Below are positions 12,345 to 32,696 of a DNA stretch of 64,000 bases, in pieces. The stretch spans positions 3,109,001 to 3,173,000 of the forward strand of contig NZ_CP024848.1 in the NCBI RefSeq assembly GCF_003352005.1. Reading direction: 5' to 3'. Below the pieces are notes generated by a model. It was not told the DNA's origin. It saw nothing but the letters and a program-made list of their open reading frames with translations, and did not search any database. The position numbers and the translations under genes are program-made. Source of the DNA: Oceanobacillus zhaokaii (GTDB taxonomy: Bacteria; Bacillota; Bacilli; Bacillales; Amphibacillaceae). Each line of letters starts with the position of its first letter. Positions within the stretch are counted from its first letter, which is position 1.

Positions 12345-12409
12345 CCATTATATCTTCGGGTATTGAATTAGTAGCAATTTATTTATTTTTAGTAATCTAC
12401 CATCTTCGT

Positions 12410-14341
12410 CTATTTGTTTATTAACTCAATAAATTCCTCTTTTACTTCACAACATGTTAGCTGTTTTACCCTTTGTTCATTTTCAATAATTTCAATTAAA
12501 TATTCATACATCCCTTGCAAATTAGGTGTTTTGTTTTTCCCTAGACTTAATAAACAAACGAATTGAACACGGTTACCCTCCCAATCAATAGGTCTTTTCA
12601 ACGTACAAATTGCCCAGAAGGTTTCACTTGTAAACGGCGTCATCGGATGGGGAATTGCGACCAAATTTCCAAAGCTAGTAGGCGATAAACGTTCTCTTTC
12701 TAAAACAGAATCACCGAACGATCCATCTACATAACCCTTCAACTCAAGTTTATTTACTAAATACTTGATAACCTCTTCTTTTGTTTGTAAGTCTTTTTGA
12801 AGAAAAATAAGCTCCTCTTTCAAAAAGGCAATTTTATTTTTATTTCGTTCTTGTAAATAATCTTCTATTCTACTAATGTCTTCTGTCCCTAATATTGTAT
12901 TGACATGTATAATTGGAACCGAAAATTCCCCCTCAATTGGAATAGTTGTAATAATAAAATCTATATGTTTTAAGGAAGTTTCATCTAACCGATAATAATC
13001 GATTGTATCTACAACTACTAATTGGTTAAAATACATTGATTGCAGTTTATACTTTAATAACATCGCACTACCTACTCCAGATGCACAAACGATGATGCAG
13101 CGCTTAACGTCTTGATTCATCTTCTGCCTATACATGGCTACACTTATATGCAACGCAATATATCCAATTTCATCTTCTTCAATGTCAATCGCTAATTTCT
13201 CTTTTAATACTTCGCTTGCTAAAATTGCGGCATCAAATGCAAGAGGATATTTCGCTTTAATCTCTTCAAGCATTGGATTTCGCACATTCATTCCATATCG
13301 AAGGCGGTTTATCGCAGGCTTTAAATGTAATCCTAAAGCGATAAACAGCTCCTTATCATCTTGCAGGCGCAATTTCAATCGATTATCAATCTTCATGATA
13401 ATTTCATTTGTTATTTCTCCTAGAAAACTTCCAACAAGTGCTTCTAATTCTTGTCTATCTAAATTTGTGTTTGCTATTTTATTTGTACCTAACAAATGAA
13501 TGGCAATATATGCTATTTCTACTTCAGGAAAAGAAACATTCAAAGCGAATTCAATTTTTGTTACTATTTGTTTAGCCACTTTGTATTCTTTTTGATTGCA
13601 TATCCCTTCAAAATCTTCAGGTGCTAGTAATATATAATTTCTATCTCTAATCCGCTTACAAGCAATAGCGAAATGAATACACAAATTATTTAGCGCAATA
13701 TCGGAAATATCAATTTCATTCGTTTTAACTTCTTCTAAAATAATCCTGTGAATAGTATTGAATTCTTCGTTTGAAAATATGGAATCGATCTGGTTTTGCA
13801 TACTGAAAATAATTTCTTTTCTATTAAATAAATATTCCGACAAACAAAACCGCAAGTTCATTTCATTACCTTTTACTTTAACTCCATAATATGGTTTACT
13901 TTCTATTTCAATCTTAAAACTTTTTAATTTTTTCCTTACTTCGATTAAATCATTCTGCAATGTAGATTTGCTAATATATAATTCATCCGCAATCTGATCT
14001 AATTTAATATAGTTATTCGCTAGAAGAAGTTTCCTAACAATATAAATGGCACGCGCTTCAGGGGAATTCGGTGTTTTACTTGCTAGAAATGTAGCGTTTT
14101 CAGATATTTCTTGTAAAAACAACTTGAATATTTTACTATTTTTTATTTCTAACTCATATCCAATTCCTCTGGTTGACTTAATGAATCCTCCATTTTGTAA
14201 TAAGATTTCATTAAGTTCTTTTATATCATTTCGAATCGTTCTTGATGTAACTTGTATAATATTTGCTAAATCATTACCCGTTATTGGAGATTTAGTAGAC
14301 AATAGGTCTTTTAAAATCAGCCTCATTCGACTGGACAGCAT
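12410..14341 (-). CDS. licR: LicR-type PTS-regulated transcriptional activator
   Basis: Multidomain regulator of 643 residues: N-terminal helix-turn-helix domains (about 1-160), two PRD domains (about 170-400) with histidines for PTS phosphorylation, an EIIB-like domain with Cys in IIVCASGVGSAM, and a C-terminal EIIA-2 domain with His in VAIPHPMTP. Such proteins activate the neighbouring PTS operon when the sugar is present and are inhibited by the idle PTS. GGGAG lies 8 bases before the ATG at 14341; the GTG three codons earlier abuts it. It is transcribed toward the lic operon but has its own terminator. Confidence 0.92.
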   Translation of the reverse strand: MLSSRMRLILKDLLSTKSPITGNDLANIIQVTSRTIRNDIKELNEILLQNGGFIKSTRGIGYELEIKNSKIFKLFLQEISENATFLASKTPNSPEARAIYIVRKLLLANNYIKLDQIADELYISKSTLQNDLIEVRKKLKSFKIEIESKPYYGVKVKGNEMNLRFCLSEYLFNRKEIIFSMQNQIDSIFSNEEFNTIHRIILEEVKTNEIDISDIALNNLCIHFAIACKRIRDRNYILLAPEDFEGICNQKEYKVAKQIVTKIEFALNVSFPEVEIAYIAIHLLGTNKIANTNLDRQELEALVGSFLGEITNEIIMKIDNRLKLRLQDDKELFIALGLHLKPAINRLRYGMNVRNPMLEEIKAKYPLAFDAAILASEVLKEKLAIDIEEDEIGYIALHISVAMYRQKMNQDVKRCIIVCASGVGSAMLLKYKLQSMYFNQLVVVDTIDYYRLDETSLKHIDFIITTIPIEGEFSVPIIHVNTILGTEDISRIEDYLQERNKNKIAFLKEELIFLQKDLQTKEEVIKYLVNKLELKGYVDGSFGDSVLERERLSPTSFGNLVAIPHPMTPFTSETFWAICTLKRPIDWEGNRVQFVCLLSLGKNKTPNLQGMYEYLIEIIENEQRVKQLTCCEVKEEFIELINK

Positions 14342-19819: not shown

Positions 19820-20458
19820 TTATCTTACGCGTTGTTTTCTCATCCATTGTGTTGCTATCCATTTTTCTCCTGTTATTACAGGCGCACCACCGTGTAAAGT
19901 CCGTTCATTTAAGTTGTGATCGGCATAAAAGTATTCAAAGTACACCGCCATTCCTTTTCTTGGAGATACGGAGAAATTCAATTCCGGGAAAAAGGTTTCT
20001 CCGCCTTGTTCGACATCATTCAAGTACATGACCAGCGTGCTGATTCGATTATTTTGGGAAGCATTGCTTGCAGCTGAAAAATAATCAAAATGAGCTTTAT
20101 ACTCCTGTCCGGGCGTATATTTTAGGATTTGAAGCCCTTCTCCGTGTTCGACGGGGATGTTCATAATGCTGGAAACTCTTTTTTCAATTTTCGTTAAGAT
20201 ACCATGCTCATTTCCTTCAAAAAACATGCCGCTGCTCGTTCGAATTTCATTTACTTCTCGAGCATCTCCAATTTTAGAACGATGCATGTTATCTTTTGAT
20301 AATCGAATGAGTTCATCACACTCTTCATTGCTCAAAACATTCTCTAAAACTAACACGAGCGGTTCTTCCAAACGGGCAACAATATGAATCTCTCGATCTT
20401 CTGTTTGAAATCGATTTCCAACGTGAGGAAAAATGGTTTGTTCCTTTTGCATTGTCAA
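19820..20458 (-). CDS. 2-oxoglutarate/Fe(II) dioxygenase, prolyl 4-hydroxylase type
   Basis: Cytosolic protein of 212 residues resembling Bacillus prolyl 4-hydroxylases. The Fe(II) ligands are His and Asp in AHFDYF and the distal His in RTLHGGAPV; the basic residue for 2-oxoglutarate is in GEKWIATQW. RTSSGMFF and LQILKYTPGQEYKAHFD are family blocks. Likely substrates are proline-containing peptides or collagen-like proteins; none is encoded nearby. The TTG at 20458 has AAGGAG 10 bases upstream; the ATG two codons later is an alternative start. The gene stands alone. Confidence 0.88.
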   Translation of the reverse strand: MTMQKEQTIFPHVGNRFQTEDREIHIVARLEEPLVLVLENVLSNEECDELIRLSKDNMHRSKIGDAREVNEIRTSSGMFFEGNEHGILTKIEKRVSSIMNIPVEHGEGLQILKYTPGQEYKAHFDYFSAASNASQNNRISTLVMYLNDVEQGGETFFPELNFSVSPRKGMAVYFEYFYADHNLNERTLHGGAPVITGEKWIATQWMRKQRVR

Positions 20459-20632
20459 TGTGCCTCTACTCCTTCCGTAATTCTAATTTCCGAACAACCG
20501 GTTTGGCTGATTTTGTCATTTCGTTTTTATTATACTATAATTTCCTGTTTCTTTAGAGAATTTTGATTCGTTTTTTAAGTCTCTAAAATGATATTTTTTG
20601 GTTATGCACTCGAATATTTTTCAATCTAGCTG

Positions 20633-20673
20633 TAAACAAAATCAATCCGTAGTAATATAAAATTACTACGGAT
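20633..20673 (-). terminator. terminator after lsrF (end of lsr operon)
   Basis: Perfect 12-base stem ATCCGTAGTAAT / ATTACTACGGAT, loop 5 bases, followed on the minus strand by TTGATTTTGTTT, about 80 bases behind lsrF. Confidence 0.82.
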
Positions 20674-20751
20674 CATTCTGCAGCTCGTGAACAGCACTCA
20701 ATGCTGTGGCAAAGCAATTAATATACATCTCTCCCTTACATTTCCATAAGG

Positions 20752-21645
20752 TTATAATTCACCTTTAACAGTTACTGCTTGCTGAAAAAACTCATATGCC
20801 TCTCTATCCGAATAACCTTCATGGACTACCTTTCCAATCGCTTGTATCATCTCTTCGGGATATTTCGATTGGAAAATATTCCGTCCCATATCTACCCCTG
20901 CAGCTCCTCCCTCGATTGCTCGATATGCAAGAGTGAGAGCATCTTTCTCGGGGATCTTCTTCCCTCCAGCAACAACTAGTGGTACAGGACAAGCAGAAGC
21001 AACCTTTTCAAAATCCTCACAATAATAGGTTTTTACTATTTGTACACCAAACTCAGCAAGCATTCTAGTAGCTAATAAGAAAAATTGTGTCGTTCGCTCC
21101 ATTTCTTTTCCAACAGCGACAACGCCCATTGTTGGTATAGAATATTTCGAGCCAAGATTGACAGCTCTGTTCAGCTCCTCAATTGTTTCCTTCTGTCCTT
21201 TGGCACCAATAAATGTTTGGATTGCAATAGCACTTGCATTCATTTTTATTGCATCATCAATATCAACTACCATGGATTCCTGGCTTAAATCATCTTGTAA
21301 AACACTAGAGCCAGATGAAGCTCTTAAGGCAATTGCTTTATTATATGTTGCTGGGACACTGCTGCGAATCGCTCCCCTAGTTCCCATTAAGCAGTCCGCG
21401 TAATCTGCCAGCCTAGGAATTAATAGATCCAATCTTTCTAGACCTGATGTCGGTCCCATGAAGTACCCATGATCAAATGCTAGCATTACCGTTTTTCCTG
21501 TCTGGGGATTAAAGATTCTTGATAAACGGTCCTTCATACCCCAGTCATAGTTCGCAGCACCTTTTACATGAAAGTCCCCATTATTAGCAAATGGAACTGC
21601 TTCTGAAAAGTTTTTTGCATCTTTATTTCCTGCAACATCTGCCAT
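20752..21645 (-). CDS. lsrF: LsrF, phospho-AI-2 thiolase
   Basis: Class I aldolase-fold protein of 297 residues. In enterics LsrF moves an acetyl group from 3-hydroxy-2,4-pentadione 5-phosphate to CoA, the last step of phospho-AI-2 breakdown. The family blocks MLAFDHGYFMGPTSGLE, DCLMGTRGAIRSS and VVAGGKKIPEKDAL are intact, and the catalytic lysine is in IVKTYYCEDF. GGGGAG lies 10 bases before the ATG. It is the last gene of the lsrACDBF operon, 33 bases behind lsrB. Because LsrG makes the LsrF substrate in enterics and is missing here, the cupin at 29603-29959 may supply that step. Confidence 0.93.
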   Translation of the reverse strand: MADVAGNKDAKNFSEAVPFANNGDFHVKGAANYDWGMKDRLSRIFNPQTGKTVMLAFDHGYFMGPTSGLERLDLLIPRLADYADCLMGTRGAIRSSVPATYNKAIALRASSGSSVLQDDLSQESMVVDIDDAIKMNASAIAIQTFIGAKGQKETIEELNRAVNLGSKYSIPTMGVVAVGKEMERTTQFFLLATRMLAEFGVQIVKTYYCEDFEKVASACPVPLVVAGGKKIPEKDALTLAYRAIEGGAAGVDMGRNIFQSKYPEEMIQAIGKVVHEGYSDREAYEFFQQAVTVKGEL

Positions 21646-21678
21646 CTAATACAATCTCCCCTCGATTTGTTCCCTTAT

Positions 21679-22776
21679 TTAAAAGTCAAAATCATTTGTA
21701 TTATGTTTTGTAAAAACAATTCGCTCAGGTAAAACGATAATACCAGAGTCCTCTGCTTCATAGTCATAGCCCTGAACAGAATTTGGTTCTACTGTAACCT
21801 CTCCAATGTTAGGAACATCAACTGTGTCACCAACCTTTAGTTCATTTCCTTGTGCCAAATAGTACGCGATATATACTGCAAGTGCGCCCTGATCAGTAAC
21901 GTCCCATAAACCATGATTAAGAATCGTCCCATTTTCGATAAATTGGCGCATTGAATTAGGAGATGCGAAACCAGTAATAATAATATCCTCTGCAGTTAGT
22001 CCCTTATTTTCAGCAGCTTGTGCCATTGCAGGAAGGGCTGTTGAGTCCGGTGCAATAACAGCATCTAAATCTGGGTACGAATCGATGATACTTTCTCCAA
22101 TTTGTAATGATAACTGTTCATCACCTTCACCAAACTGTTTCGTAACAATCTCCCAGTTCGGATATTTCTCAGCAATATAGGTTTCTGCATAATCAACCCA
22201 TGAATTCTGATCAGGAACGGTCGGACTTGAGTAGAACCAAGCAACCTGCTGCTCCGCATTCGGATCATCCATTTGTTCTGCTGCCATATCGACGAGCATC
22301 GCGCCTAGTATTTCTGGAGTTCCTTGATTAATATAAGCTGTTCGATATTCCGGATCTACATCAGAATCCCATGTTACTACCTTCACTCCTGCATCTAGTG
22401 CATTCTGTAATGCCTGGTTCAACCCATCAGAAGTCACCGACGAAATGGCAATTGCATCTGCCCCACTACTCACTGCACTGTTGATAATTTGCACTTGGTT
22501 AGCGACTGTTCCCTCTGGTGCTCCATCATATTTCACCTTGAAGCCTATTTCCTCCGCCATTGCTTGTGCACCGTTATTTCCTGATTCGAAAAATGCATTA
22601 CCTGTCATTTTTGGGATGAAAACAACTTCAATATCACTTGCAGCTTCATTTCCTGAGGAATCACCACCATCTGAATTATCCTTCGTTGCTCCATCATCAT
22701 TTGTATTACATGCAGCAAGCAAAAATACCAACAATAAAATTCCAAACAGGGTTTTAAGGATGTTAAATTTTCTCAT
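21679..22776 (-). CDS. lsrB: LsrB, AI-2 binding lipoprotein
   Basis: Substrate-binding protein of 365 residues with a lipoprotein signal (LLAAC, Cys23) that anchors it outside the membrane. It aligns without gaps with enteric LsrB around the ligand site: Lys in IPKMTGN, Asp in VTWDSD, Asp-Gln in TVPDQNSW and Pro in IAPDS. The enteric Ala222 is Ser here. GLWDV and VLPERIVF are also conserved. It captures AI-2 for the LsrACD importer. It lies fourth in the operon, between lsrD and lsrF. Confidence 0.93.
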   Translation of the reverse strand: MRKFNILKTLFGILLLVFLLAACNTNDDGATKDNSDGGDSSGNEAASDIEVVFIPKMTGNAFFESGNNGAQAMAEEIGFKVKYDGAPEGTVANQVQIINSAVSSGADAIAISSVTSDGLNQALQNALDAGVKVVTWDSDVDPEYRTAYINQGTPEILGAMLVDMAAEQMDDPNAEQQVAWFYSSPTVPDQNSWVDYAETYIAEKYPNWEIVTKQFGEGDEQLSLQIGESIIDSYPDLDAVIAPDSTALPAMAQAAENKGLTAEDIIITGFASPNSMRQFIENGTILNHGLWDVTDQGALAVYIAYYLAQGNELKVGDTVDVPNIGEVTVEPNSVQGYDYEAEDSGIIVLPERIVFTKHNTNDFDF

Positions 22777-22826
22777 TACAGCCTACCTCCGATTTATTTA
22801 AAATATGAGACCATATACCACCAAAG

Positions 22827-23822
22827 CTATACACTGTTTTTCTGTGGGGAAACTATTCGTTTAATATTTGACTTGAAATCCGCAGAAATTCCTAAAAATG
22901 CGGCTGAAATAATAAGGAGAAGTCCGGTTGCTAGGCCAATATACTGTGTCGAAACACCTCCCATTTGCAAACCTATTTGCAGAAATCCCACAATTATGCT
23001 TGCTAGAGCAGTACCGACAACACCTCCTTTACCACCAGTAATTAAAGTTCCCCCCAATACAACAACAGTTAATATCGGCATGAGGTACTCTGCACCGAAA
23101 TCTGCTCTTGCACTACCTAAATAGGAAGTCAGCATGACGCCAGCAACACCGGCACTTAAACCAGATAATACATACGTGCTCGCGATAATTTTCCTCGTAT
23201 GAATACCCGCATACTCTGCAGCATGCTGATTAATTCCTGTTAAATAAATATATCTTCCGTACCTCGTCCAATACAATAGAACGAACGCAATAGCAAACAT
23301 GATAAAAAATAATAAAACAGAATGTGGGATTCCAAGTAATTTTCCATATGCTAGATTAGTAAAGGCTTGCGGGAAACCAGATATCCCCTCATACGTGCTT
23401 ACACCAGAGAAACCAACTAACACAATCGCAACCCCACTATATAACAGCATTCCACCAAGCGTGATCACCATAGCCTGAACACGTCCATAAGCAATAAGTA
23501 TTCCATTTAATAAACCACATAATCCTCCAACTAATATTGCAAGGATGATTGATACCCAAATATTTATCCCGATAACCTGTGATAAAATTCCTATTACAAC
23601 AGAGGTTAACCCAATAATTGATCCCCCTGAGATATCAATCCCACCTGTAATCACCACAAAAGTAACAAAGAAAGCGATAATTGCGATGCCGATAAAATCG
23701 TTAAAGCTATTTAATAAGATCGTGATATTTAAGAATCTCGGGTTAATTAATCCAAAAATGATGATTTCTGCGATTAATATAATCCCTAACATCAGATTCC
23801 ATTTCGGTATTTTTGCTAACAT
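22827..23822 (-). CDS. lsrD: LsrD, AI-2 ABC importer permease
   Basis: Ribose-type (RbsC family) permease of 331 residues with eight to ten hydrophobic segments; VVITGGIDISGGSIIGL and the EYLMPILTVVVLGGTLITGGKG loop region are typical. It pairs with LsrC to form the membrane channel. AAGGAGG lies 12 bases before the ATG, and only 7 bases separate it from lsrC, so the two are co-translated. The C-terminus is shorter than that of LsrC and lacks its basic tail. Confidence 0.9.
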   Translation of the reverse strand: MLAKIPKWNLMLGIILIAEIIIFGLINPRFLNITILLNSFNDFIGIAIIAFFVTFVVITGGIDISGGSIIGLTSVVIGILSQVIGINIWVSIILAILVGGLCGLLNGILIAYGRVQAMVITLGGMLLYSGVAIVLVGFSGVSTYEGISGFPQAFTNLAYGKLLGIPHSVLLFFIMFAIAFVLLYWTRYGRYIYLTGINQHAAEYAGIHTRKIIASTYVLSGLSAGVAGVMLTSYLGSARADFGAEYLMPILTVVVLGGTLITGGKGGVVGTALASIIVGFLQIGLQMGGVSTQYIGLATGLLLIISAAFLGISADFKSNIKRIVSPQKNSV

Positions 23823-23829
23823 CTAGAAC

Positions 23830-24825
23830 TCACACCTCCTTCTGAATGACTCTAGCATTTAATCTTTCTTTCTTCGCTTGATTACTAGACTTTCTTGCTA
23901 ATAATGCATCCGTTACAACAATGATAATTAATAGTGAGCCTGATATCGCATCATTCCAAAATGCAGGAACCTTCATAAAAACAAGCGCAGAAATAATCGA
24001 GGTCATAATAATTGCACCAATACTTGCACCAACAATAGATCCCAAACCGCCAACTAACGAAACACCACCAAGAACTGTCGCTGCAATAACTGTCATTTCT
24101 ATACCTAATCCAGCAGTTGTTGAAATAAAACCAATTTGACTAGCAAATATTAGTCCAGCAATGGATGCACAGACACTAGAAATGATAAAAGAATAGGTTT
24201 TATATCTTTTTACTGGAATTCCTAAGAGTATTGCACCGTCCTCATTGTCACCTATTGCTGCAAAATATCTCCCTTTATTACCATTGGATAAAAACAATTG
24301 AATGAGAATAACCGCAACAATTACGATAATCGCTAAGGCATTTATTCCAAGGATATTTATCTGAGAAAGCTGCTTAAATGCAATTGGTAAGTTCTCTATC
24401 CATTTCCCATCCGTATAAATTACCTGGATTACTCTTAGGATTCCAAGCATCCCCAAGGTCATAATAAAGGAAGAGATTTTTAATTTAGTAACCCCTAGAC
24501 CATTTATCAAACCAATGATTATTCCGATTAGAATAGCAATAAATACTGCTAGAATGATACTGCCACCATCTCTGAGGATAATTCCGCTAACTGCTGCACT
24601 GAGTCCCAGTACACCACCAACGGAAATATCAATATTCCCAGTCAACAAAACGAACGTCATCCCAATTGCAAGCACGATATATAGTAAACTGCTTTTTAAC
24701 ACATTATGGATATTTCCTAATGATAGAAAGTCCGTATTAACGATCCCTACAATAACAAACAATAGGATTAAAAAGAGAAATGTCCTAAACTCTCTCTGCT
24801 TTAGCATTGTTTCAACTTTTGACAT
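23830..24825 (-). CDS. lsrC: LsrC, AI-2 ABC importer permease
   Basis: RbsC-family permease of 331 residues; LLTGNIDISVGGVLGLSAAV and VIAATVLGGVSLVGGLGS are the expected family blocks. With LsrD it forms the AI-2 channel energised by LsrA. I place the start at the ATG at 24825, preceded by GAAGTG; the open frame continues nine codons further into lsrA. The lsrA stop at 24812 overlaps this start by 14 bases, indicating coupled translation. Confidence 0.9.
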   Translation of the reverse strand: MSKVETMLKQREFRTFLFLILLFVIVGIVNTDFLSLGNIHNVLKSSLLYIVLAIGMTFVLLTGNIDISVGGVLGLSAAVSGIILRDGGSIILAVFIAILIGIIIGLINGLGVTKLKISSFIMTLGMLGILRVIQVIYTDGKWIENLPIAFKQLSQINILGINALAIIVIVAVILIQLFLSNGNKGRYFAAIGDNEDGAILLGIPVKRYKTYSFIISSVCASIAGLIFASQIGFISTTAGLGIEMTVIAATVLGGVSLVGGLGSIVGASIGAIIMTSIISALVFMKVPAFWNDAISGSLLIIIVVTDALLARKSSNQAKKERLNARVIQKEV

Positions 24826-26320
24826 AAGGTTCACTTCTTTCATATGTTCCAAAGGCAGCTTTCATTACATTCGTTACATTGATTTCCTCAATTTCCAGAC
24901 AAACATCACAAGTCCCCCGATGAATGGCATAAATACGATCACTAATTCTTTCAATCTCCTCTAAATCAGACGAAATCAGTAAAATTGCATATCCTTGTTC
25001 CTTCAATTCTGTAATAATGGCGTAAATATCACGCCTTGCTGCTGCATCTATTCCCCTTGTTGGTTCATCCATAATGATTAATTTTGGTTTTGTCGATAGA
25101 ATCCTGGCTATTACGGCTTTTTGCTGATTTCCCCCTGATAATGATTTTATTTCCTCATCACTGCTGGAAAGCTTAATATTTAACCTGTCAATATATTCAT
25201 TTGTAATTTTCTCTTCCATTTTCTTATTTGTAAAAAAACCTTGTTTTTTGATAATCTGTGCCGTTATATTGTTTCGAACGGAACTAATGGTAAAAATTCC
25301 ATGTAAGAATCGGTCCTCTGGTATATATGCCACGCCACTTGCAACTGTTTCATCTATTGGTAATTTCGTAATATCTTTTCCATCCAGATAAATTTTTCCA
25401 CGCTTCACTTCCGTAATACCATAGATAGATTCGGCTATTTCCGTTCTTCCTGCCCCAACAAGACCGGCAAGACCAACCACCTCCCCTTTGTAAACATCGA
25501 AGCTGATTTGATTAAATCCATCGCCACAAATATTTTCTACCTTAAGAATTGGTGCAACATTACTATAATCCGATTTTTTCTTTTCAAACTCATGCGTGTC
25601 ATTTTTTATATTGCCATCCGGAATTAGCCCTTCAATTAACATTTCTTTCGTAAACTGATCAATTTTTCCTTTAAGCGTAATGTTGCCATCTCTTAAAATA
25701 ACGGCATGAGTTGAAATCTGAAATACCTCATCCAGTCGATGGGTTATATAAAAGATCCCCACACCTGCAGTCTTTAGCTTTTCAATTACTGCAAATAAAG
25801 ACTTAGTTTCCGAAAATGTTAGTGCAGATGTAGGTTCATCAAGTATTAAAACTTTTGCATTCCTTAGCAGACCTTTAATTATTTCTAACTGCTGTTGCTC
25901 AGCGATTGTTAACGAATTGGCATATCGATGTAAATCCAGGTCCCAGCCTAATTGTTCCAGCAACTTCTTCGTTGTCGTTCTCACCTCTGCTTTTGTTTTG
26001 TCGAAGCCTATCGTCAGGTTTTGTTCAACGGTCATGTTCGGAAACAATAGCGGTTCTTGCGGTACTAAATAGATTCCTTTCTGATGGGCAATTAACGGAT
26101 TGAAGTGAATGATATTTTCACCGTTAATCTCGAGTTCACCTGAATCTGCTTTATAAACTCCAGTCAATATTTTCATCAATGTACTTTTTCCTGCACCGTT
26201 TCCACCAATAATTGAAATTACTTCTGATTTGTGAATTGCCAAAGAAACTCCTTTTAATACTTGGTTTTGATGAAATGACTTTTGAATATTTTTTAATTCC
26301 ACTAATGGATTAGCGTTCAA
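24812..26320 (-). CDS. lsrA: LsrA, AI-2 ABC importer ATPase (double domain)
   Basis: Fused ABC ATPase of 502 residues, RbsA type. The first half has Walker A GGNGAGKSTLM, signature TIAEQQQLEI and Walker B VLILDEPTSAL; the second has LVGAGRTEIAES, LSGGNQQKAVIARI and LIIMDEPTRGID. It drives uptake of AI-2 by LsrCD. The start is a TTG at 26320 with a strong GGAGGTG box 6 bases upstream. It is the first gene of the lsrACDBF operon, whose upstream region holds a cre box and a candidate operator. Confidence 0.92.
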   Translation of the reverse strand: MNANPLVELKNIQKSFHQNQVLKGVSLAIHKSEVISIIGGNGAGKSTLMKILTGVYKADSGELEINGENIIHFNPLIAHQKGIYLVPQEPLLFPNMTVEQNLTIGFDKTKAEVRTTTKKLLEQLGWDLDLHRYANSLTIAEQQQLEIIKGLLRNAKVLILDEPTSALTFSETKSLFAVIEKLKTAGVGIFYITHRLDEVFQISTHAVILRDGNITLKGKIDQFTKEMLIEGLIPDGNIKNDTHEFEKKKSDYSNVAPILKVENICGDGFNQISFDVYKGEVVGLAGLVGAGRTEIAESIYGITEVKRGKIYLDGKDITKLPIDETVASGVAYIPEDRFLHGIFTISSVRNNITAQIIKKQGFFTNKKMEEKITNEYIDRLNIKLSSSDEEIKSLSGGNQQKAVIARILSTKPKLIIMDEPTRGIDAAARRDIYAIITELKEQGYAILLISSDLEEIERISDRIYAIHRGTCDVCLEIEEINVTNVMKAAFGTYERSEPYVKS

Positions 26321-26410
26321 TTTTTACACCTCCATAGTTTTTATTATTTTTGTTCATTTTGCTATGTTGCTATTTATATTAACTTAGGATGATATTTGCC
26401 TCCTTGGCTG

Positions 26411-26532
26411 TCGCTCCAGAAATACACTACGCTTTCCGCGGGGAGCTGGTGAGCCTTCTTGTGCTGTTGCACTTCGAAGTCTCACCAAGGCTCTACTTCC
26501 CGCAGGAGTCTTCGTGTATTTCTTCCGCTGAG
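26411..26532. repeat. palindromic Bacillaceae-type intergenic repeat
   Basis: About 120 bases, clearly richer in G+C than the surroundings. Outer arms GAAATACAC (26419-26427) and GTGTATTTC (26514-26522) are complementary. Inside are CGCTTTCCGCGGGGAG, GGTGAGCC and, on the far side, TCTCACC and CTTCCCGCAGGAGTC. I recognise this layout from many Bacillaceae genomes, where it is a common intergenic repeat. It separates lsrA from its probable promoter region. Confidence 0.7.
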
Positions 26533-26750
26533 GTTGTAAAAAATCACATATAAAAGAGTAACTGAGAATCGACGTTGATTGATGGTATGAGAATAGAAAC
26601 CCCTCTTGTGAACAGCAACTACTGTCTAGATCTGAAATCAAAATTGTCACTAGTTCGTACTTTATATCGACTTACGAATATCAATAATCACTTGAGTTAG
26701 TTACTATCTTTTAGAAAACATCCTTCTTTTTCTATATAACAATTTTATTA
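26533..26750. other. 5' leader side of the lsrA-lsrR intergenic region
   Basis: AT-rich sequence without a credible gene. It would be the untranslated leader of lsrA if transcription starts near 26750. A minus-strand open frame across 26384-26650 only translates the palindromic repeat. Confidence 0.4.
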
Positions 26751-26797
26751 TTGTAAGCGTTTGCTTATCTTGTAAATTATATTATGCGTGCACACAT
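26751..26797. promoter_or_regulatory. cre box and candidate LsrR operator between lsrA and lsrR
   Basis: TTGTAAGCGTTTGCT (26751-26765) is a full cre match. Next to it, ATGCGTGCACACAT (26784-26797) is a near-perfect 14-base palindrome with core GTGCAC. A perfect -10 hexamer TATAAT for the lsrA direction lies between them on the minus strand (26782-26777), with no good -35. The layout fits repression by LsrR and by CcpA, as CRP/LsrR control does in enterics. LsrR binding is inferred. Confidence 0.6.
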
Positions 26798-27044
26798 TTT
26801 ATTAATGATTCATCATTTTATTATTTTTTAATCTCCTATTTTTTTGAAGATAAGATTCCTGACTTTCTATTTATAAAAATATTTATATCCAGTAATTGTT
26901 AATAAACAGGGATTTGCAAGCATATTATTAATTTCAAAGTTTACTTTCACAACTTATTTTACTTCGTTCAATTTCCCTGGATCTTATTTACCAATAGGGC
27001 TAACAAATGTTTTTTGTACTAAATTTTGTTTCAACAAGTGAGGG
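26798..27044. other. lsrR upstream region
   Basis: Very AT-rich. No gene and no clear promoter hexamer pair was identified by eye; the lsrR ribosome site (GAGGGATGAG) lies at its right end. Confidence 0.4.
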
Positions 27045-27968
27045 ATGAGCTTGTCCTATGAGAGAGATCTGATCGTAAGGATTGCCTGGAAATATTACAA
27101 CGAGGGAATGACGCAAAATGAAATAGCTGCAGCACTAAATTTATCAAGGATGAAGGTCATTAAATACCTGGAAAAGGCAAAATCATCAAATATCATTCAA
27201 TTCAAAATCAACTTAGAAAAAATCACGAATATGGATCTGCAAAATGAAATTAAAAAGAAATACGGATTACAGGATATTTATATTGTTCCAGCATCGAATC
27301 AGAAATCAATAGAAAGTCTTACAGTAGCAGCAGCACAATACATTGAAGACCGAATCACAAGTGACATGATGATTAATATTGGATATGGGCAAGCAGTTTC
27401 AAAGACATTAGGATACTTAAATATTTCAACAAAATATAAGGTTACCTTCGTCTCCTTGTCCGGCGGTGTAAAATTTTACATGCCTACAGCAATTGATACA
27501 AGGTCAGACTACTACACAAATCCAAATTATAAGCACTATATTATTCCGTCGCCATTAATCGTATCCTCCGTAAAACTCGCAGAACAGATGCTGAAGGAGA
27601 GGTCAATTAACAAGATACTAAAGATGATTCCATTTTCAAATATTACAGTAATTGGGATTGGCGCGTTGAATGAACAGGCAACGATTGTAAAGGAAGACGA
27701 GCTTAGCTTAAATGACCTTGAGATTTTAAAAGCAAAAGGAGCAGTTGGCGATTTATTAAGCCAATTTTATGACATCAATGGCAAAGTTCTAGACATTCCT
27801 GTACATAAGCATCTGATCAGTACAGATATTCAGTTATTGAAATCACTTCAGCATGTCGTAGCTGTTGCAGGAGGACTTGATAAAAAAGACGCAATTATCG
27901 GGGCACTAAATGGTGGATATATTGATGTACTAATTACAGATGAATCCGTCGCAGAAGCGATTATTTAA
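27045..27968 (+). CDS. lsrR: LsrR, SorC/DeoR-type transcriptional repressor
   Basis: Regulator of 307 residues. An N-terminal helix-turn-helix (about 8-55, with YNEGMTQNEIAAALNLSRMKVIKYL) is followed by a sugar-phosphate binding domain of the SorC family (GYGQAVSKTLGYL, SLSGGVKF, IGIGALNE, VAGGLDKKDAIIGAL). In enterics LsrR represses the lsr operon and is released by phospho-AI-2; this gene faces the lsrACDBF operon and precedes lsrK, the same arrangement. The start is probably TTG at 27051 or the ATG at 27045, since GAGGGATGAG sits close to both; I keep 27045. Confidence 0.9.
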   Translation: MSLSYERDLIVRIAWKYYNEGMTQNEIAAALNLSRMKVIKYLEKAKSSNIIQFKINLEKITNMDLQNEIKKKYGLQDIYIVPASNQKSIESLTVAAAQYIEDRITSDMMINIGYGQAVSKTLGYLNISTKYKVTFVSLSGGVKFYMPTAIDTRSDYYTNPNYKHYIIPSPLIVSSVKLAEQMLKERSINKILKMIPFSNITVIGIGALNEQATIVKEDELSLNDLEILKAKGAVGDLLSQFYDINGKVLDIPVHKHLISTDIQLLKSLQHVVAVAGGLDKKDAIIGALNGGYIDVLITDESVAEAII

Positions 27969-28033
27969 ATCTATTTATTTTCTGATTCAATACAAAATTG
28001 ATAGAAAGGAAGATAATTATCGAAACCTATCTA

Positions 28034-29584
28034 ATGGCGATTGATGCAGGGACTGGGAGTGTAAGGGTAATCTTATTCGACACACTTGGCAATGAAATTC
28101 ATGTGTCTCAATCAGAATGGACACATAAAGAAGATAAAGGATACCCCGGTTCCATGGATTTTGACGTTTCGAGAAACATTGTAATTATTACAGATTTAAT
28201 TAAAGAAACGATTAGTAAAAGCAATGTAGATTCTAAGCAGATTGCCGCAATATCAACAACAAGCATGCGGGAGGCAATTGTTTTATACGATCAATTTGGC
28301 AAGGAGCTATGGGCATGTGCTAATGTCGACTCGCGATCGAATGATGAAGTTACGAATCTTTATCAAATAAGCGAAACGATTGAAGCTGATATATACCGAA
28401 AATCCGGACAAACATTTTCGTTAGGTGCAATTCCAAGAATACTCTGGGTAAAAAATAATCTGCCTGAAACATATAAACAGATAAAAAATGTAACGATGCT
28501 AAATGATTGGATAACGTATCGACTAACAGATGTCATTTCCGTTGAACCTTCGAACGGCTGCACAACTGGACTCTTTGATTTAAAGCAAAGATCATGGGAC
28601 TCATCCATTGCCGACCAAGCTGGAATTCGAAATGATATTTTCCCAGTTAGTTATGAGAGTGGCACGATCATTGGTAATGTAACCGAAAAAATGGCGGTAT
28701 TGACAGGACTCAGCACTGAAACAGTTGTCGTCGCAGGTGGTGGCGATGCTCAGCTTGGATGTATTGGCATGGGAGTAATTGGCGAAGGGAGCGCGGCTAT
28801 TCTAGGTGGAAGCTTCTGGCAATATGAATACACAACCAAAAACATGCAGATTGATGACAAATGCAGGGTACGAATTAACTGTCATGCTGTTCCAAATACG
28901 TGGCAGTACGAAGCAATTGCTTTTTATCCCGGATTAGTGATGCGGTGGTTTCGTGATAGTTTTTGTGAGTTAGAGAAATATCTGGAAGAGCAAACTGGGG
29001 AAAGTATTTATTCACAAATGGAAAAACGTGCACGAAATGTATCAGTTGGCAGTAATGGAATGTTAAGTACCTTCTCCGATAAAATGAATTACATTTCCTG
29101 GAAGCATGCTGCACCTAGTTTCATAAATTACAAGCTTGATTCGGAACGATTTAATAAGGCAACATTTTACCGATCCATTATGGAAAATGCTGCCTTTGTA
29201 ACAAAAGGAAATATTGACTTAATAAATGAAATTACGGATACGTCGCCGAAGGAAATTATATTCGCTGGCGGAGCATCGAAAAGTGAACTATGGTGCCAAA
29301 TTATTTCAGATGTACTAAATACACCAATTAAGGTTCCCGTTGTCAGAGAATCAACAGCCCTTGGCGCAGCTATCTGTGCAGGTGTTGGCGCAAATATTTT
29401 TGATAGCTTTGATGATGCTATTTCTAAAGTTGTGAAATTCGAGAAAACATATTCCCCTATCAAGGAAAACCATTTAGTTTATATAGCGTTATATAAGAAA
29501 TGGGAAGAAATCTATAAAAACCAACTAGAATTGGCTGATAAGGGGCTCACAGAGCATATGTGGATTGCACCAGGATTAAAATAA
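28034..29584 (+). CDS. lsrK: LsrK, AI-2 kinase
   Basis: FGGY-family kinase of about 517 residues that phosphorylates AI-2 in the cytosol and so traps it and creates the LsrR inducer. MAIDAGTGSVRVILFD is the N-terminal phosphate motif, VVVAGGGDAQLGCIG and IIFAGGASKSELWCQI the later ATP-binding blocks. The start is uncertain: the ATG at 28034 has no ribosome site, whereas AAAGGA (28005-28010) lies 5 and 8 bases before in-frame ATT (28016) and ATC (28019). Enteric LsrK also has residues before this Met (YLMALDAGTG). A TTG at 27998 is a third option. The gene follows lsrR closely. Confidence 0.9.
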   Translation: MAIDAGTGSVRVILFDTLGNEIHVSQSEWTHKEDKGYPGSMDFDVSRNIVIITDLIKETISKSNVDSKQIAAISTTSMREAIVLYDQFGKELWACANVDSRSNDEVTNLYQISETIEADIYRKSGQTFSLGAIPRILWVKNNLPETYKQIKNVTMLNDWITYRLTDVISVEPSNGCTTGLFDLKQRSWDSSIADQAGIRNDIFPVSYESGTIIGNVTEKMAVLTGLSTETVVVAGGGDAQLGCIGMGVIGEGSAAILGGSFWQYEYTTKNMQIDDKCRVRINCHAVPNTWQYEAIAFYPGLVMRWFRDSFCELEKYLEEQTGESIYSQMEKRARNVSVGSNGMLSTFSDKMNYISWKHAAPSFINYKLDSERFNKATFYRSIMENAAFVTKGNIDLINEITDTSPKEIIFAGGASKSELWCQIISDVLNTPIKVPVVRESTALGAAICAGVGANIFDSFDDAISKVVKFEKTYSPIKENHLVYIALYKKWEEIYKNQLELADKGLTEHMWIAPGLK

Positions 29585-29602
29585 TTTGAAGGAGTGTTGA
29601 CA

Positions 29603-29959
29603 ATGGGAATAGTAAATGAAAATGAGAGAGAATATCGTTTTGGTGATAGTGGGCCAAAGTATCTCATGCGGGGACCTAGAATGAACTTTGGAATTGTCGT
29701 ATTGAAGCCTGGGCAGGATTTTACTGCGCATTATCACAATATAATGGAAGAAAATTTTTATATATTAGAAGGGGAACTCGAAATCCATATTGATCAAGAA
29801 GCTTTCCACTGTAAAAAAGGCGACTTCATCCACGTTGAACCAAAGAAGGTCCACTATTTAATTAATCGTGGTAACACAGATTTCAAAGCAGCATTCATGC
29901 TCGCTCCATATCAAGAAAAAGATAAGGTTGAAGTAGAATACCAGCCCTATCGTAAATAG
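29603..29959 (+). CDS. cupin protein in the lsr locus (possible LsrG replacement)
   Basis: Small cupin of 118 residues. The first cupin motif supplies the metal ligands in HYHNIMEENFYILEGELEIH and the second in KKGDFIHVEPKKVHYL, so a metal site with three His and one Glu is likely. GAAGGAG lies 8 bases before the ATG at 29603; it follows lsrK by 18 bases and belongs to the lsrRK operon. No LsrG (ABM-domain isomerase of phospho-DPD) is found in this locus, so the cupin may do this isomerisation, or bind AI-2 derivatives. That role is inference. Confidence 0.85.
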   Translation: MGIVNENEREYRFGDSGPKYLMRGPRMNFGIVVLKPGQDFTAHYHNIMEENFYILEGELEIHIDQEAFHCKKGDFIHVEPKKVHYLINRGNTDFKAAFMLAPYQEKDKVEVEYQPYRK

Positions 29960-29984
29960 ACTGTGTTGGAGATGGGTTGATTGT

Positions 29985-30023
29985 ATATGGATTGGGAGTG
30001 CTCCACAACATCCAATCTCATAT
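29985..30023 (+). terminator. weak terminator-like hairpin after the cupin gene
   Basis: GATTGG / CCAATC arms with an outer TATG / CATA pair; no T run follows, so termination is doubtful. Confidence 0.3.
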
Positions 30024-30047
30024 TAGATAATTAAGGTTTAGCTCTGA

Positions 30048-30067
30048 CTTTCGGTGACAGCCTTAGT
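30048..30067 (+). repeat. dispersed short repeat CTTTCGGTGACAGCCTTAGT
   Basis: Differs by one base from the copy at 12111-12130 (minus strand) and resembles 16677-16698. Confidence 0.5.
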
Positions 30068-30098
30068 TACACTGTTATATTTATTTTACTTAAAAAGA

Positions 30099-30140
30099 AT
30101 CGGGGAGTGCCAGGCACTCTTTCACCCTGCACTCCCCGAT
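30099..30140. repeat. short dispersed repeat, copy R2, with hairpin
   Basis: ATCGGGGAGTGC and GCACTCCCCGAT form a perfect 12-base stem around CAGGCACTC. It carries the core shared with the other copies and directly abuts the longer element at 30141. Confidence 0.65.
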
Positions 30141-30284
30141 ATAAAGTGAAACTTTATTCAGTGGGGGTTCTTTTCAACCCCCACTGAATATTAGTTGAAC
30201 CAATCGGGCCGTTATTGGCTGTTGATCTCCCACTTAGAAGTTTCGTGTTTACTCGATTCTTCAAGTGGGAGTCTTACAGCCAGT
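30141..30284. repeat. hairpin-rich intergenic repeat element, intact copy 2
   Basis: Starts ATAAAGTGAAACTTT. Hairpin one: ATTCAGTGGGGGTT / AACCCCCACTGAAT (14-base perfect stem). Then TTAGTTGAACC and hairpin two with CTCCCACTT / AAGTGGGAG arms, ending GTCTTACAGCC. The same ordered blocks occur, decayed, at 1122-1259. Both copies lie a few bases behind the stop of a minus-strand gene. It could be the structured RNA-bearing end of an IS200/IS605-type element; no transposase gene is present. Confidence 0.6.
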
Positions 30285-30299
30285 TACACTGCGATAAAT

Positions 30300-32696
30300 T
30301 TATCTTATTAATTTCACGATTTCATTTCTTACATTTTCATTAATTGCTACGTTTCCACCAAGGAAATATAGATTTGGCCTTGTAGAGATGCGTCCATTCA
30401 GCCATGCTTTTGTTTCTGCAGGAAGTTTATTAGCTTGTGTTAGAACGATTGGTGCTTCTAATTTCGCTGCAAATGGAGATGCGGAAAGAGCATCTGCTGT
30501 TTCCATTCCTTGTGAGACTAAGAGTTTATCAATCGCTTTACTATCATAGAAAGTATTGATAATCGCGATATTCGTATCAAATCTTGACTTACCGAATACT
30601 CGCTTCACATTTGCTGAACCTACTAAACGCTGTAGCTCTGCTTCTGCGCTTTTCGATACTGCTAATTCTCCACCAATTATCGTGACCTTTTTAATATTAT
30701 TATCTTGAATAAAGGTGCGTACTTCTTTGTTCAAGCTTTCTCCCCTGCTCCTTCCTGTAAGAAGGATTGGAATATTATTTTCACCTGCATATGGCGCGAT
30801 TGCTAATGGATCCGAGGAATTCGAATCTCCAGTCGTGACGATAACTTCACTCACATTGCTATGCTCATCTACTTCTTTAGCAACCTTAGATGCTGTTTCA
30901 AATCTACTATATCCAGCAATACGGATTACTCGATTATTACCAAATTTTTGTTTAAGTTTATTTTCCACATCTTCTGAAATAACATTCTCCCCACCTAAAA
31001 TATAAACAATACCAGTAGGGTTTAGTCGATTAAGTTCTCTTTCTACTGAAGCTGGCAATTCCTTCGTTTTCGTCAAAATCAATGGTGAGTCAAGTCCAGA
31101 GGCTAACACACTTCCTGTTAACGCATCAATTGGGTCATCCCCACGTCCGATTACAACAGAAGTTGGTTGGTCCCAATGCCAGCCATGGTTTGCAATGCTA
31201 ACACTCGTATCGTAACGTGAGTATCCTTCTAAACGATGAACATCAATGTAGTCATTTTTATTCAAATAGCTAGATGATACCCATGCATTTTGCCCATTGC
31301 TTGTACGAATAGGGAGCCATACATATTGGTTGTACTTTGAATTGTTCCCTGCATAACCGCCAGTAATCGTCACTTTAGATCCTTTAGATAAGCTGCCAAT
31401 GACATCACCATTAGGTGCATTTCGGATATTCAACGATTGTGCTGTTGTATATGCCGTATCTCCTTTTACAAGGGATTGGCTTGAATAATGCTGTGGTCCA
31501 GTAACTTTAAAATTGAGCGTTTCAAATCGTAACTGCCCATTTTCTAAAGTATATGGATCTAATAAATGAGTTGGAAAAGGATTAATATCGATTAAGGTAT
31601 AATCATTGAGAAGTTCAAATACCTCTTCCTGATACGCTCCATATGGAGAGAATGGTCTTTCCAATGGGTTATTTCTTGGCAGCATTCCATTATATGCCAT
31701 CACCGCGAAATACCAATTTTCAATTACTAACGGGTCATTATCATTAATTGTCGGAATAATACCGGAACGATGGAAACCCCATTTTTCATTTAAAATCTTG
31801 ATTCCTTCTTGGATATTAAAACGAATATCCGTCTTTAATCTGTCTATGTATGCATCCTTTTCGGGACCATCTTTCATAAACCTATAGTCCGAAATTTGCA
31901 TAATCCCAATGCCAATACAATCATAGCCAAGTTTTACATTCGTTCCATCATAATTATCACAAGCCTGGATTGACTTTGGAACGGATCCCCAGTACTGTTC
32001 CCAGCCGCTCTCTTGAAGGGCAATCGCCTTCACTATTTCTGGTGAAACATTCGCTTTTAGTGACTCTTCCGTTAAGATTTTATTAATCTCAGAAAAAGAA
32101 GGATTCTTTTTCGTTCCTTCTGCCTGCAATGCATTCGTTGCAAATTCGACTTGCTCTTCTTTACCTTTTCCTTCAACTACCTGATTATCAGTAATTGAGA
32201 ATTCTTGTGTGATAATAGCAGAAGGCTCTGTTCGCGCATCATCTTCCTCATACTTCGGATACTTTAATGTAATCTTGTTTTCTGCAATTTCCAGTCGTGC
32301 ACGTTCGTAAACTTCTGAAGTATACACTGTTTCGACAGCTGATTCATTTAGCTTTACTATTTCAAAGTAAAGGCCATTCGCTGAACCATCATGGCGATAG
32401 CTAATAATCGCATATTCTTGACCATCTGCATTCACCTTCTCAATACTTGTTACAGTGATCATGGAAAGCTCTTTATGGTATAGTTCTTGTCCATTGTCTG
32501 TAATCGAAAGCTCTGCGTTCATATCCTGGTTTGTAACGTGAACCTCTTTCGTTTCTGTTAACTGTTCCTTGGCTTCCCCAATACTAAAGTCAAATTCAGT
32601 CGCCTCTTCTGCACCTACATGCATCGGTAAAACGACAAAAATCGCAAGCATTGCAGCAAGTAAAACTAGCTGACTCTGCTTCTTCATAGCATGCAT
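30300..32696 (-). CDS. secreted lysozyme-fold protein with SH3 and three cell-wall binding repeats
   Basis: Exported protein of 798 residues with a signal peptide (cleavage near VGA-EEA, residue 29). A non-globular region (about 30-200) is followed by a lysozyme/transglycosylase-like domain (about 205-360) with the catalytic-type Glu in IVKAIALQESGW and QISDYRF, then an SH3 domain (about 400-465; SLNIRNAPNGDVIGSL) and three CW_binding_2 repeats, each starting R-x-GYSRYDT/RFET/RFDTN with conserved YILGG-type ends. It probably cuts or remodels peptidoglycan while bound to anionic wall polymers. GGGAGG lies before the ATG. It stands alone; the repeat element lies right behind it. Confidence 0.88.
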   Translation of the reverse strand: MHAMKKQSQLVLLAAMLAIFVVLPMHVGAEEATEFDFSIGEAKEQLTETKEVHVTNQDMNAELSITDNGQELYHKELSMITVTSIEKVNADGQEYAIISYRHDGSANGLYFEIVKLNESAVETVYTSEVYERARLEIAENKITLKYPKYEEDDARTEPSAIITQEFSITDNQVVEGKGKEEQVEFATNALQAEGTKKNPSFSEINKILTEESLKANVSPEIVKAIALQESGWEQYWGSVPKSIQACDNYDGTNVKLGYDCIGIGIMQISDYRFMKDGPEKDAYIDRLKTDIRFNIQEGIKILNEKWGFHRSGIIPTINDNDPLVIENWYFAVMAYNGMLPRNNPLERPFSPYGAYQEEVFELLNDYTLIDINPFPTHLLDPYTLENGQLRFETLNFKVTGPQHYSSQSLVKGDTAYTTAQSLNIRNAPNGDVIGSLSKGSKVTITGGYAGNNSKYNQYVWLPIRTSNGQNAWVSSSYLNKNDYIDVHRLEGYSRYDTSVSIANHGWHWDQPTSVVIGRGDDPIDALTGSVLASGLDSPLILTKTKELPASVERELNRLNPTGIVYILGGENVISEDVENKLKQKFGNNRVIRIAGYSRFETASKVAKEVDEHSNVSEVIVTTGDSNSSDPLAIAPYAGENNIPILLTGRSRGESLNKEVRTFIQDNNIKKVTIIGGELAVSKSAEAELQRLVGSANVKRVFGKSRFDTNIAIINTFYDSKAIDKLLVSQGMETADALSASPFAAKLEAPIVLTQANKLPAETKAWLNGRISTRPNLYFLGGNVAINENVRNEIVKLIR

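Follow-up and report, generated by a model that had tools for sequence, protein, structure and literature searches.

Which enzyme isomerizes phosphorylated autoinducer-2 (AI-2) in a bacterium whose lsr locus has no lsrG gene? This question is raised by Oceanobacillus zhaokaii, in which a stretch of 64,000 nucleotides (contig NZ_CP024848.1 of assembly GCF_003352005.1, positions 3,109,001 to 3,173,000 of the forward strand; hereafter the window) carries a complete lsr locus at 20752-29959, with lsrF-B-D-C-A on the minus strand and lsrR-lsrK followed by a small cupin gene on the plus strand. LsrG reportedly converts phosphorylated 4,5-dihydroxypentane-2,3-dione (phospho-DPD) to 3-hydroxy-5-phosphonooxypentane-2,4-dione, moving a carbonyl between neighbouring carbons of the phosphorylated chain. 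We propose, with about an even chance of being right, that the cupin is a metal-dependent phospho-DPD isomerase that performs the step of LsrG. This function is suggested by several lines of evidence: (i) near-complementarity of cupin and LsrG among lsr loci, (ii) exchange of the two genes in the slot behind lsrK, (iii) the parsimony of their gains and losses, (iv) co-inheritance of the cupin with LsrK (r = 0.88), (v) the pattern of conserved residues, (vi) the fold match, and (vii) co-expression of the Salmonella gene STM4071 with lsr genes. The cupin may instead perform another step on the same molecule.

The Lsr proteins were identified by comparison with NCBIfam models. LsrF, LsrB, and LsrK score above the curated cut-offs; for LsrA, LsrC, LsrD, and LsrR, the respective Lsr model ranks best, with a score under its curated cut-off. 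The components that define an Lsr uptake and processing locus, namely the LsrACDB transporter, LsrR, LsrK, and the divergent arrangement, are all found, as is the LsrF thiolase, and the gene places agree with those given in an earlier note made from this sequence. The same note described lsrG as absent, and its absence was confirmed for the whole 4.1 Mb genome, where the LsrG model NF007791 finds no match at E <= 1e-3. Three genes elsewhere in the genome match the ABM domain (PF03992); their best models are heme-degrading or heme-oxygenase ones, none of them LsrG. These searches rule out an LsrG homolog elsewhere in the genome as the enzyme for this step. The cupin itself is not a member of the LsrG family, as it matches Cupin_2 and neither the ABM domain nor NF007791.

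The likely start of the cupin gene is ATG 29603, located 18 nt past the lsrK stop codon and preceded by AAGGAG, which gives a protein of 118 residues, the length stated in the earlier note (the list of open reading frames, ORFs, places the start at GTG 29594 instead). Judging from this spacing and ribosome-binding signal, lsrK and the cupin gene are very likely co-transcribed. The protein matches Pfam Cupin_2 with 61.7 bits and stays under every NCBIfam cut-off. Cupin motif 1, G(X)5HXH(X)4E(X)6G, is present (G37, H43, H45, E50, and G57), and so are H84 and N88 of motif 2, in agreement with the metal-type cupin directly behind lsrK that the earlier note had described. The metal-ligand positions (H43, H45, E50, and H84) are invariant in all 47 aligned cupins; metal binding itself is predicted.

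The AlphaFold2 model of the cupin is a beta structure (predicted local distance difference test, pLDDT, 90.4; predicted template modelling score, pTM, 0.82), and its Foldseek matches are cupins. The lowest E-values belong to PDB entries 7zvm (E 4.7e-9, 30% identity over 89 columns) and 7zvy, both titled as Thermococcus phosphomannose isomerase, and the highest TM-scores to 3h8u, an uncharacterised protein. Metal-dependent cupin phosphosugar isomerases perform carbonyl-shift chemistry of LsrG's kind, and it is from nearness in predicted fold and in sequence that a phosphosugar isomerase function is suggested for the lsr cupin. Other relatives are dioxygenases, lyases, and decarboxylases (quercetinase, DddK, and OxdC), a range that would also suit a cupin with a different reaction on phospho-DPD or on a by-product (hydrolysis, oxygenation, or clean-up of damaged dicarbonyls) beside a spontaneous, LsrG-independent isomerization; unaided isomerization is possible, and we regard this reading as improbable. 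Two further matches within the first 24, at ranks 17 and 24, are structures 5fpz and 5fq0 of KdgF, a small cupin that converts a cyclic unsaturated uronate to its acyclic keto form (PMC11968277). By analogy with KdgF, the lsr cupin would open a ring or interconvert anomers, speeding the conversion of cyclic or hydrated DPD, perhaps of phospho-DPD, to the linear form that LsrK or the following enzyme accepts. The same paper proposes ring-opening for an unexplained sulfoglycolysis cupin on the KdgF analogy, but found no activity of that cupin on the sugars tested. The ring-opening role is the main competitor of the isomerase proposal; we consider it unlikely, although several of the observations below fit it.

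The distribution of the cupin was analyzed both within the family of the window and far beyond it. In this family, LsrF scores above the cut-off in 7 of 159 genomes, the window's own included, and the six others carry these eight genes in identical order; thus, the arrangement is not a product of chance. A profile scan of contigs of species genomes for the cupin found 258 relatives, and the analysis continued with the best 80. Among these is the cupin of Oceanobacillus chungangensis, with 92% identity to that of the window. Of these 80 cupin loci, 79 carry lsrK or a part of it, usually directly before the cupin, and in none of the 80 (several are truncated at contig ends) was LsrG found by blastp at E <= 1e-6. 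Isolate records among the best 80 belong to Bacillota, Treponema, and Succinivibrio; records from metagenome-assembled genomes (MAGs) are labelled Planctomycetaceae, Synergistaceae, Chloroflexi, and others, labels that can be wrong (locus L022, labelled Sphingobacterium, is Bacillaceae-like). Plasmid records with an lsrK-cupin pair come from Lacticaseibacillus paracasei, Salmonella, and Deinococcus psychrotolerans. Counting isolates and plasmids only, the two genes stay together in at least four phyla (Bacillota, Spirochaetota, Pseudomonadota, and Deinococcota). The cupin is therefore a regular lsr gene, and the cupin loci in other phyla rule out that it is peculiar to this genome or to Bacillaceae.

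Some of the cupin loci have an unusual composition. On an L. paracasei plasmid typed as conjugative (L010), rbsD for a ribose pyranase lies behind the lsr cupin, and genes for a HAD hydrolase and a phosphotransferase system lie behind lsrF (2059-3596 and 12371-12766); a sugar pyranase in this position agrees with a ring-opening cupin. In two Lachnospiraceae MAGs (L062, 1-1704, and L064, 8414-11994), lsrK, the cupin gene, and lsrF all point in one direction; the LsrACDB transporter is not on the 13.7 kb of L064, and the contig of L062 starts inside lsrK. The three genes are possibly a minimal processing set. In Clostridium magnum (L055, 8118-10360), the lsr locus is decayed, with fragments of lsrF, lsrB, and lsrK, and the cupin frame is still open.

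The earlier note had suggested asking whether the presence of the cupin and that of lsrG exclude each other. We selected loci by LsrF above the cut-off in the family of the window (7 of 159 genomes), in the order of Succinivibrio, which includes the enterics (34 of 394), and in its phylum (52 of 378), as well as in a clostridial class (2 of 245), the phylum of a Treponema MAG (10 of 120), and the family of genome G712 (6 of 197). The 44 loci with lsrK on the same stretch (7 + 34 + 1 + 2) split almost completely: 14 have the cupin only, 29 have LsrG only, one has both, and none has neither. Free assortment would give about nine loci with neither gene, a figure that is no probability because the loci are related. 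In a larger set of 123 distinct lsrK loci (133 rows minus 10 duplicates), many of them selected by cupin and excluding those of the best 80 cupin loci without a single lsrK ORF of more than 440 aa, 83 have the cupin only, 36 LsrG only, four both, and none neither. Exclusion is thus nearly complete, no locus lacking both genes, but it is not strict. A ring-opening cupin explains neither the presence of at least one of the two genes in all 123 loci nor the lack of a cupin from 29 of the 30 LsrG-bearing loci in Succinivibrio's order (34 loci in all); the complementarity likewise speaks against a different reaction on phospho-DPD. Whole genomes show the same split. Among 20 chosen cupin-bearing genomes without an lsr-linked lsrG, none has a match to the LsrG model above the cut-off (five matches stay under it, at 22-37 bits; control genome G712 was recovered), and no cupin was found at E <= 1e-6 in 29 LsrG-only genomes (both control genomes were recovered).

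LsrF alone was rejected as a marker of lsr loci, since many genes that match its model have no lsrK on the stretch examined. This holds for all 42 new loci of the Pseudomonadota survey, for 7 of the 10 from spirochaetes, and for all five new ones from the family of G712; contig ends truncate several of them, and such loci were left out of the count. Also left out were G161, whose lsrK and cupin lie on a different contig from LsrF; G160, in which the cupin and LsrF are on separate stretches that both lack lsrK; and L181 (under the cut-off and without lsrK). A class-level search by LsrK gave 1 of 369 above the cut-off. Proteins that exceed the LsrF cut-off also occur in proteobacteria and spirochaetes on stretches that lack lsrK, lsrB, and lsrR (L128-L173, L177-L179, and L184-L188). 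Most of them have 58-70% identity to reference LsrFs (41-44% in L177-L179); their role may lie in another pathway, in which case the model misnames them.

The gene content of the slot directly behind lsrK links the two families further. The cupin occupies this slot in 84 of 87 distinct cupin loci. A search of plasmids by LsrK gave 79 records, 53 of them from Sinorhizobium, and 11 of the 79 were examined. Six of these are loci of rhizobial or rhodobacterial type, five of them from alphaproteobacterial records (Rhizobium, Sinorhizobium meliloti, Alloyangia, Tritonibacter, and Shinella) and one from a plasmid labelled Roseateles, and in all six the gene directly behind lsrK encodes an ABM protein that scores 105-116 bits with a profile built from 32 enteric LsrGs. 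For the three of these proteins compared with NCBIfam, LsrG is the best model, with 107-110 bits and E of about 1e-31, under the cut-off of 135. The other five plasmid loci are from Klebsiella (lsrG behind lsrF), Salmonella (two loci, with both genes), L. paracasei, and Deinococcus (both with the cupin). Thus, the gene right after lsrK encodes either a cupin or an LsrG-like protein, whichever cleaving enzyme is present, and we take this exchange as the strongest single hint that both proteins act on the product of the kinase. The exchange counts against a different reaction on phospho-DPD, and a ring-opening cupin offers no reason for an LsrG-like ABM protein in the same slot; the closer tie of the cupin to lsrK than to lsrF, seen in these 84 loci and in the Deinococcus plasmid record that has lsrK without LsrF, agrees with ring-opening.

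In the four annotated loci of the rhizobial/rhodobacterial type (L189-L192, 2.9-4.3 kb from the locus start), a class II aldolase of about 415 aa takes the place of lsrF. The two aldolases that were tested resemble the N-terminal part of bifunctional aldolase/dehydrogenases, which suggests a different cleavage of phospho-AI-2 in these loci.

Several observations weigh against the isomerase proposal. First, lsrG and the cupin occur together in two Salmonella loci (L011 and L012), in an E. coli island (L094), and in genome G712 (L123); such coexistence had been named in the earlier note as one of two findings that would contradict replacement of LsrG by the cupin, and these four loci rule out strict exclusion and strict replacement. 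The other finding so named, an LsrG elsewhere in this genome, was not made. Second, mutants without LsrG, apparently of S. typhimurium, have raised lsr transcription (PMC2728841), so that the Salmonella cupin does not seem to cover for LsrG. Third, the complementarity comes from two to three independent pairs, for which a sign test has no power. Fourth, the best 80 of the 258 relatives under-sample distant cupins such as that of Salmonella. Fifth, the cupin fold is too versatile for the match to phosphomannose isomerase to weigh much. Sixth, LsrF scores above the cut-off in 9 of 12 cupin-bearing genomes or records, and in C. magnum it is in pieces; no LsrF was found on the Deinococcus record, which covers the plasmid only, or in MAG G167, which may be incomplete, and there an isomerase that feeds LsrF would be without a partner. 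Finally, a Treponema MAG (L067) has a cupin without lsrK on the locus, and in L091 the cupin is divergent from lsrK. The absence of lsrK from L067, together with the absence of any reported cupin activity from the literature searched, would suit a non-catalytic binding or regulatory protein, or a mere passenger of the operon; given ligand positions invariant in 47 of 47 cupins, retention with lsrK in at least four phyla, and co-inheritance at r = 0.88, we regard such a role as very improbable.

The coexistence of both genes in Salmonella would be explained by a ring-opening cupin, used there beside LsrG, and it also favors a different reaction on phospho-DPD. For the isomerase proposal, the sequences of the coexisting cupins offer another explanation. 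All 44 cupins from loci that lack lsrG, the distant ones of Deinococcus and L176 included, have D39 and E49, whereas positions 39 and 49 are changed in all three cupins that coexist with LsrG (to S/S/E and C/C/S, respectively), with H43, H45, E50, and H84 kept. Position 49 adjoins the metal-ligand position E50. The Salmonella cupin may fail to stand in for LsrG owing to these changes, a hint only, since the three changed cupins may descend from one event. By its position next to lsrK (STM4072), the Salmonella cupin is STM4071, whose expression rises with the lsr genes (PMC4804515, PMC11000858). A Salmonella-like lsr cupin was also found in 125 of 5426 complete E. coli genomes. In the one context examined (L094, strain DA33133, 2447-12345), a complete locus of the order lsrE-like/G-F-B-D-C-A / R-K-cupin is surrounded by insertion sequence remnants and a group II intron maturase; this appears to be a genomic island.

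The order in which the two genes entered lsr loci was examined on a tree of 58 LsrK proteins. On this quickly built tree, which has a midpoint root and leaves 17 of 55 inner forks open, parsimony counts a single change for LsrG against three for the cupin. The three cupin changes all lie inside the LsrG-bearing part and can be read as three losses or as one loss with two gains. Adjacent to this part is the lsrK-cupin locus of Deinococcus. Pairwise distances of cupins and LsrKs from 46 loci correlate with r = 0.88, a value reached in none of 1000 permutations. The cupin tree has long branches that meet, so that the cupins of Deinococcus and Salmonella cannot be placed on it with certainty. One change against three fits a later arrival of LsrG and not replacement of LsrG by the cupin, and, like the correlation of distances, suggests an old lsrK-cupin pair with LsrG as a proteobacterial newcomer. 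The earlier note had read the cupin as a non-homologous replacement of LsrG or as a new step of AI-2 processing, a reading that finds partial support. A shared role is favored by the near-complete split, the exchange behind lsrK, and the phosphomannose isomerase matches; the four loci with both genes and the tree speak against replacement in that direction. We tentatively put forward the reverse scenario, as possible rather than probable: the cupin would be the ancestral phospho-DPD isomerase of the AI-2 pathway in most lsr lineages outside Proteobacteria; LsrG would have replaced it later in Proteobacteria, moving into the position after lsrK in loci of the rhizobial type and joining the locus at its lsrF end in enterics; and the cupins of Salmonella, the E. 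coli island, and G712 would have lost two otherwise invariant residues after LsrG came.

With the cupin as a phospho-DPD isomerase, the pathway in O. zhaokaii can be reconstructed as follows. AI-2 (DPD) would be bound by LsrB, brought in by LsrACD, and phosphorylated by LsrK. The cupin, with a metal held by H43, H45, E50, and H84, would then shift the carbonyl of phospho-DPD between C3 and C4 through an ene-diol, as in cupin phosphosugar isomerases. The predicted product, 3-hydroxy-5-phosphonooxypentane-2,4-dione, would be cleaved by LsrF with coenzyme A.

Table 1. Genes and putative signals of the lsr locus in the window (scores are those of NCBIfam models)
Feature	Position	Strand	Details
Cupin gene	29603..29959	+	118 aa, ATG start, AAGGAG upstream; proposed phospho-DPD isomerase; model pLDDT 90.4
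lsrK, autoinducer-2 kinase	27998..29584	+	Longest ORF from TTG; NF008187 740 bits, cut-off 528
lsrR, sugar-binding transcriptional repressor	27045..27968	+	NF011947 best model, 218 bits < cut-off 486; Pfam Sugar-bind
lsrA, ABC transporter ATPase	24812..26320	-	Longest ORF from TTG; NF011967 565 bits < cut-off 586
lsrC, permease	23830..24852	-	NF011961 best model, 274 bits < cut-off 388
lsrD, permease	22827..23822	-	NF011612 best model, 292 bits < cut-off 500
lsrB, AI-2 binding protein	21679..22776	-	NF011937 450 bits, cut-off 384
lsrF, 3-hydroxy-5-phosphonooxypentane-2,4-dione thiolase	20752..21645	-	NF006081 412 bits, cut-off 297
Terminator-like hairpin, 14 pairs, 3' of lsrF	20643..20675	-	Consensus match only

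The longest ORFs of lsrA and lsrC overlap. Terminator-like hairpins number five in the region, compared with a mean of 6.7 in shuffled sequence, and an Rfam scan of 20000-31000 gave no match. The gene adjoining the locus (30300-32696, minus strand) encodes a protein with an SLT transglycosylase domain, an SH3_3 domain, and three cell-wall-binding CWB2 stretches, and shows no sign of linkage to the lsr locus.

The association of the cupin with lsrK and a suggested role in processing of phosphorylated AI-2 (AI-2-P) have been in print since 2012 (PMC3420918). That paper describes a 'mannose-6-phosphate isomerase' consistently beside lsrK in the Bacillus cereus group, Spirochaeta smaragdinae, and S. 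enterica, a gene that belongs to the LsrR regulon in Salmonella, 'in keeping with a possible AI-2-P processing role'. Its position and taxa agree with those of the Salmonella cupin, which is probably the same gene. Earlier, in 2008, the Gram-positive lsr system had been placed in the B. cereus group alone (PMC2561040). The near-complete split with LsrG, the exchange of slots, and the residue change in two-gene loci were not met in the literature searched, which covers few subscription journals. Should the cupin prove to be another phospho-DPD isomerase unrelated to LsrG, (i) the AI-2 pathway is completed in at least four phyla, (ii) the unassigned Salmonella gene STM4071, identified by position, receives a function, and (iii) the pathway known from E. 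coli does not represent the general case.

Comparison of the lsr cupin with described systems reveals both shared and distinguishing features. The loci of PMC3420918 have the same lsrK association; the LsrG split, the slot exchange, and the order of gains are not in the sections of that paper available to us. The RAST label 'Cupin domain protein in autoinducer 2 (AI-2)-related operon', found in a table of PMC8876208, indicates that annotators had seen the linkage and gave no function. KdgF has 17% identity to the lsr cupin and belongs to the pathway of a non-phosphorylated uronate. The archaeal phosphomannose isomerase (7zvm and 7zvy, so titled by their depositors) has in common with the lsr cupin the fold, the HxHxxxxE motif, and about 30% identity over 89 columns; it differs in organism and substrate, and the local alignment stops short of the conserved N-terminal GPxYLxxGP segment. 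LsrG, the enteric phospho-DPD isomerase of model NF007791, has an ABM fold unrelated to the cupin barrel, and its gene lies behind lsrF in the enteric loci read; it catalyzes the same step as the one proposed for the cupin, and its relative in the rhizobial/rhodobacterial-type loci occupies the very slot that the cupin holds elsewhere.

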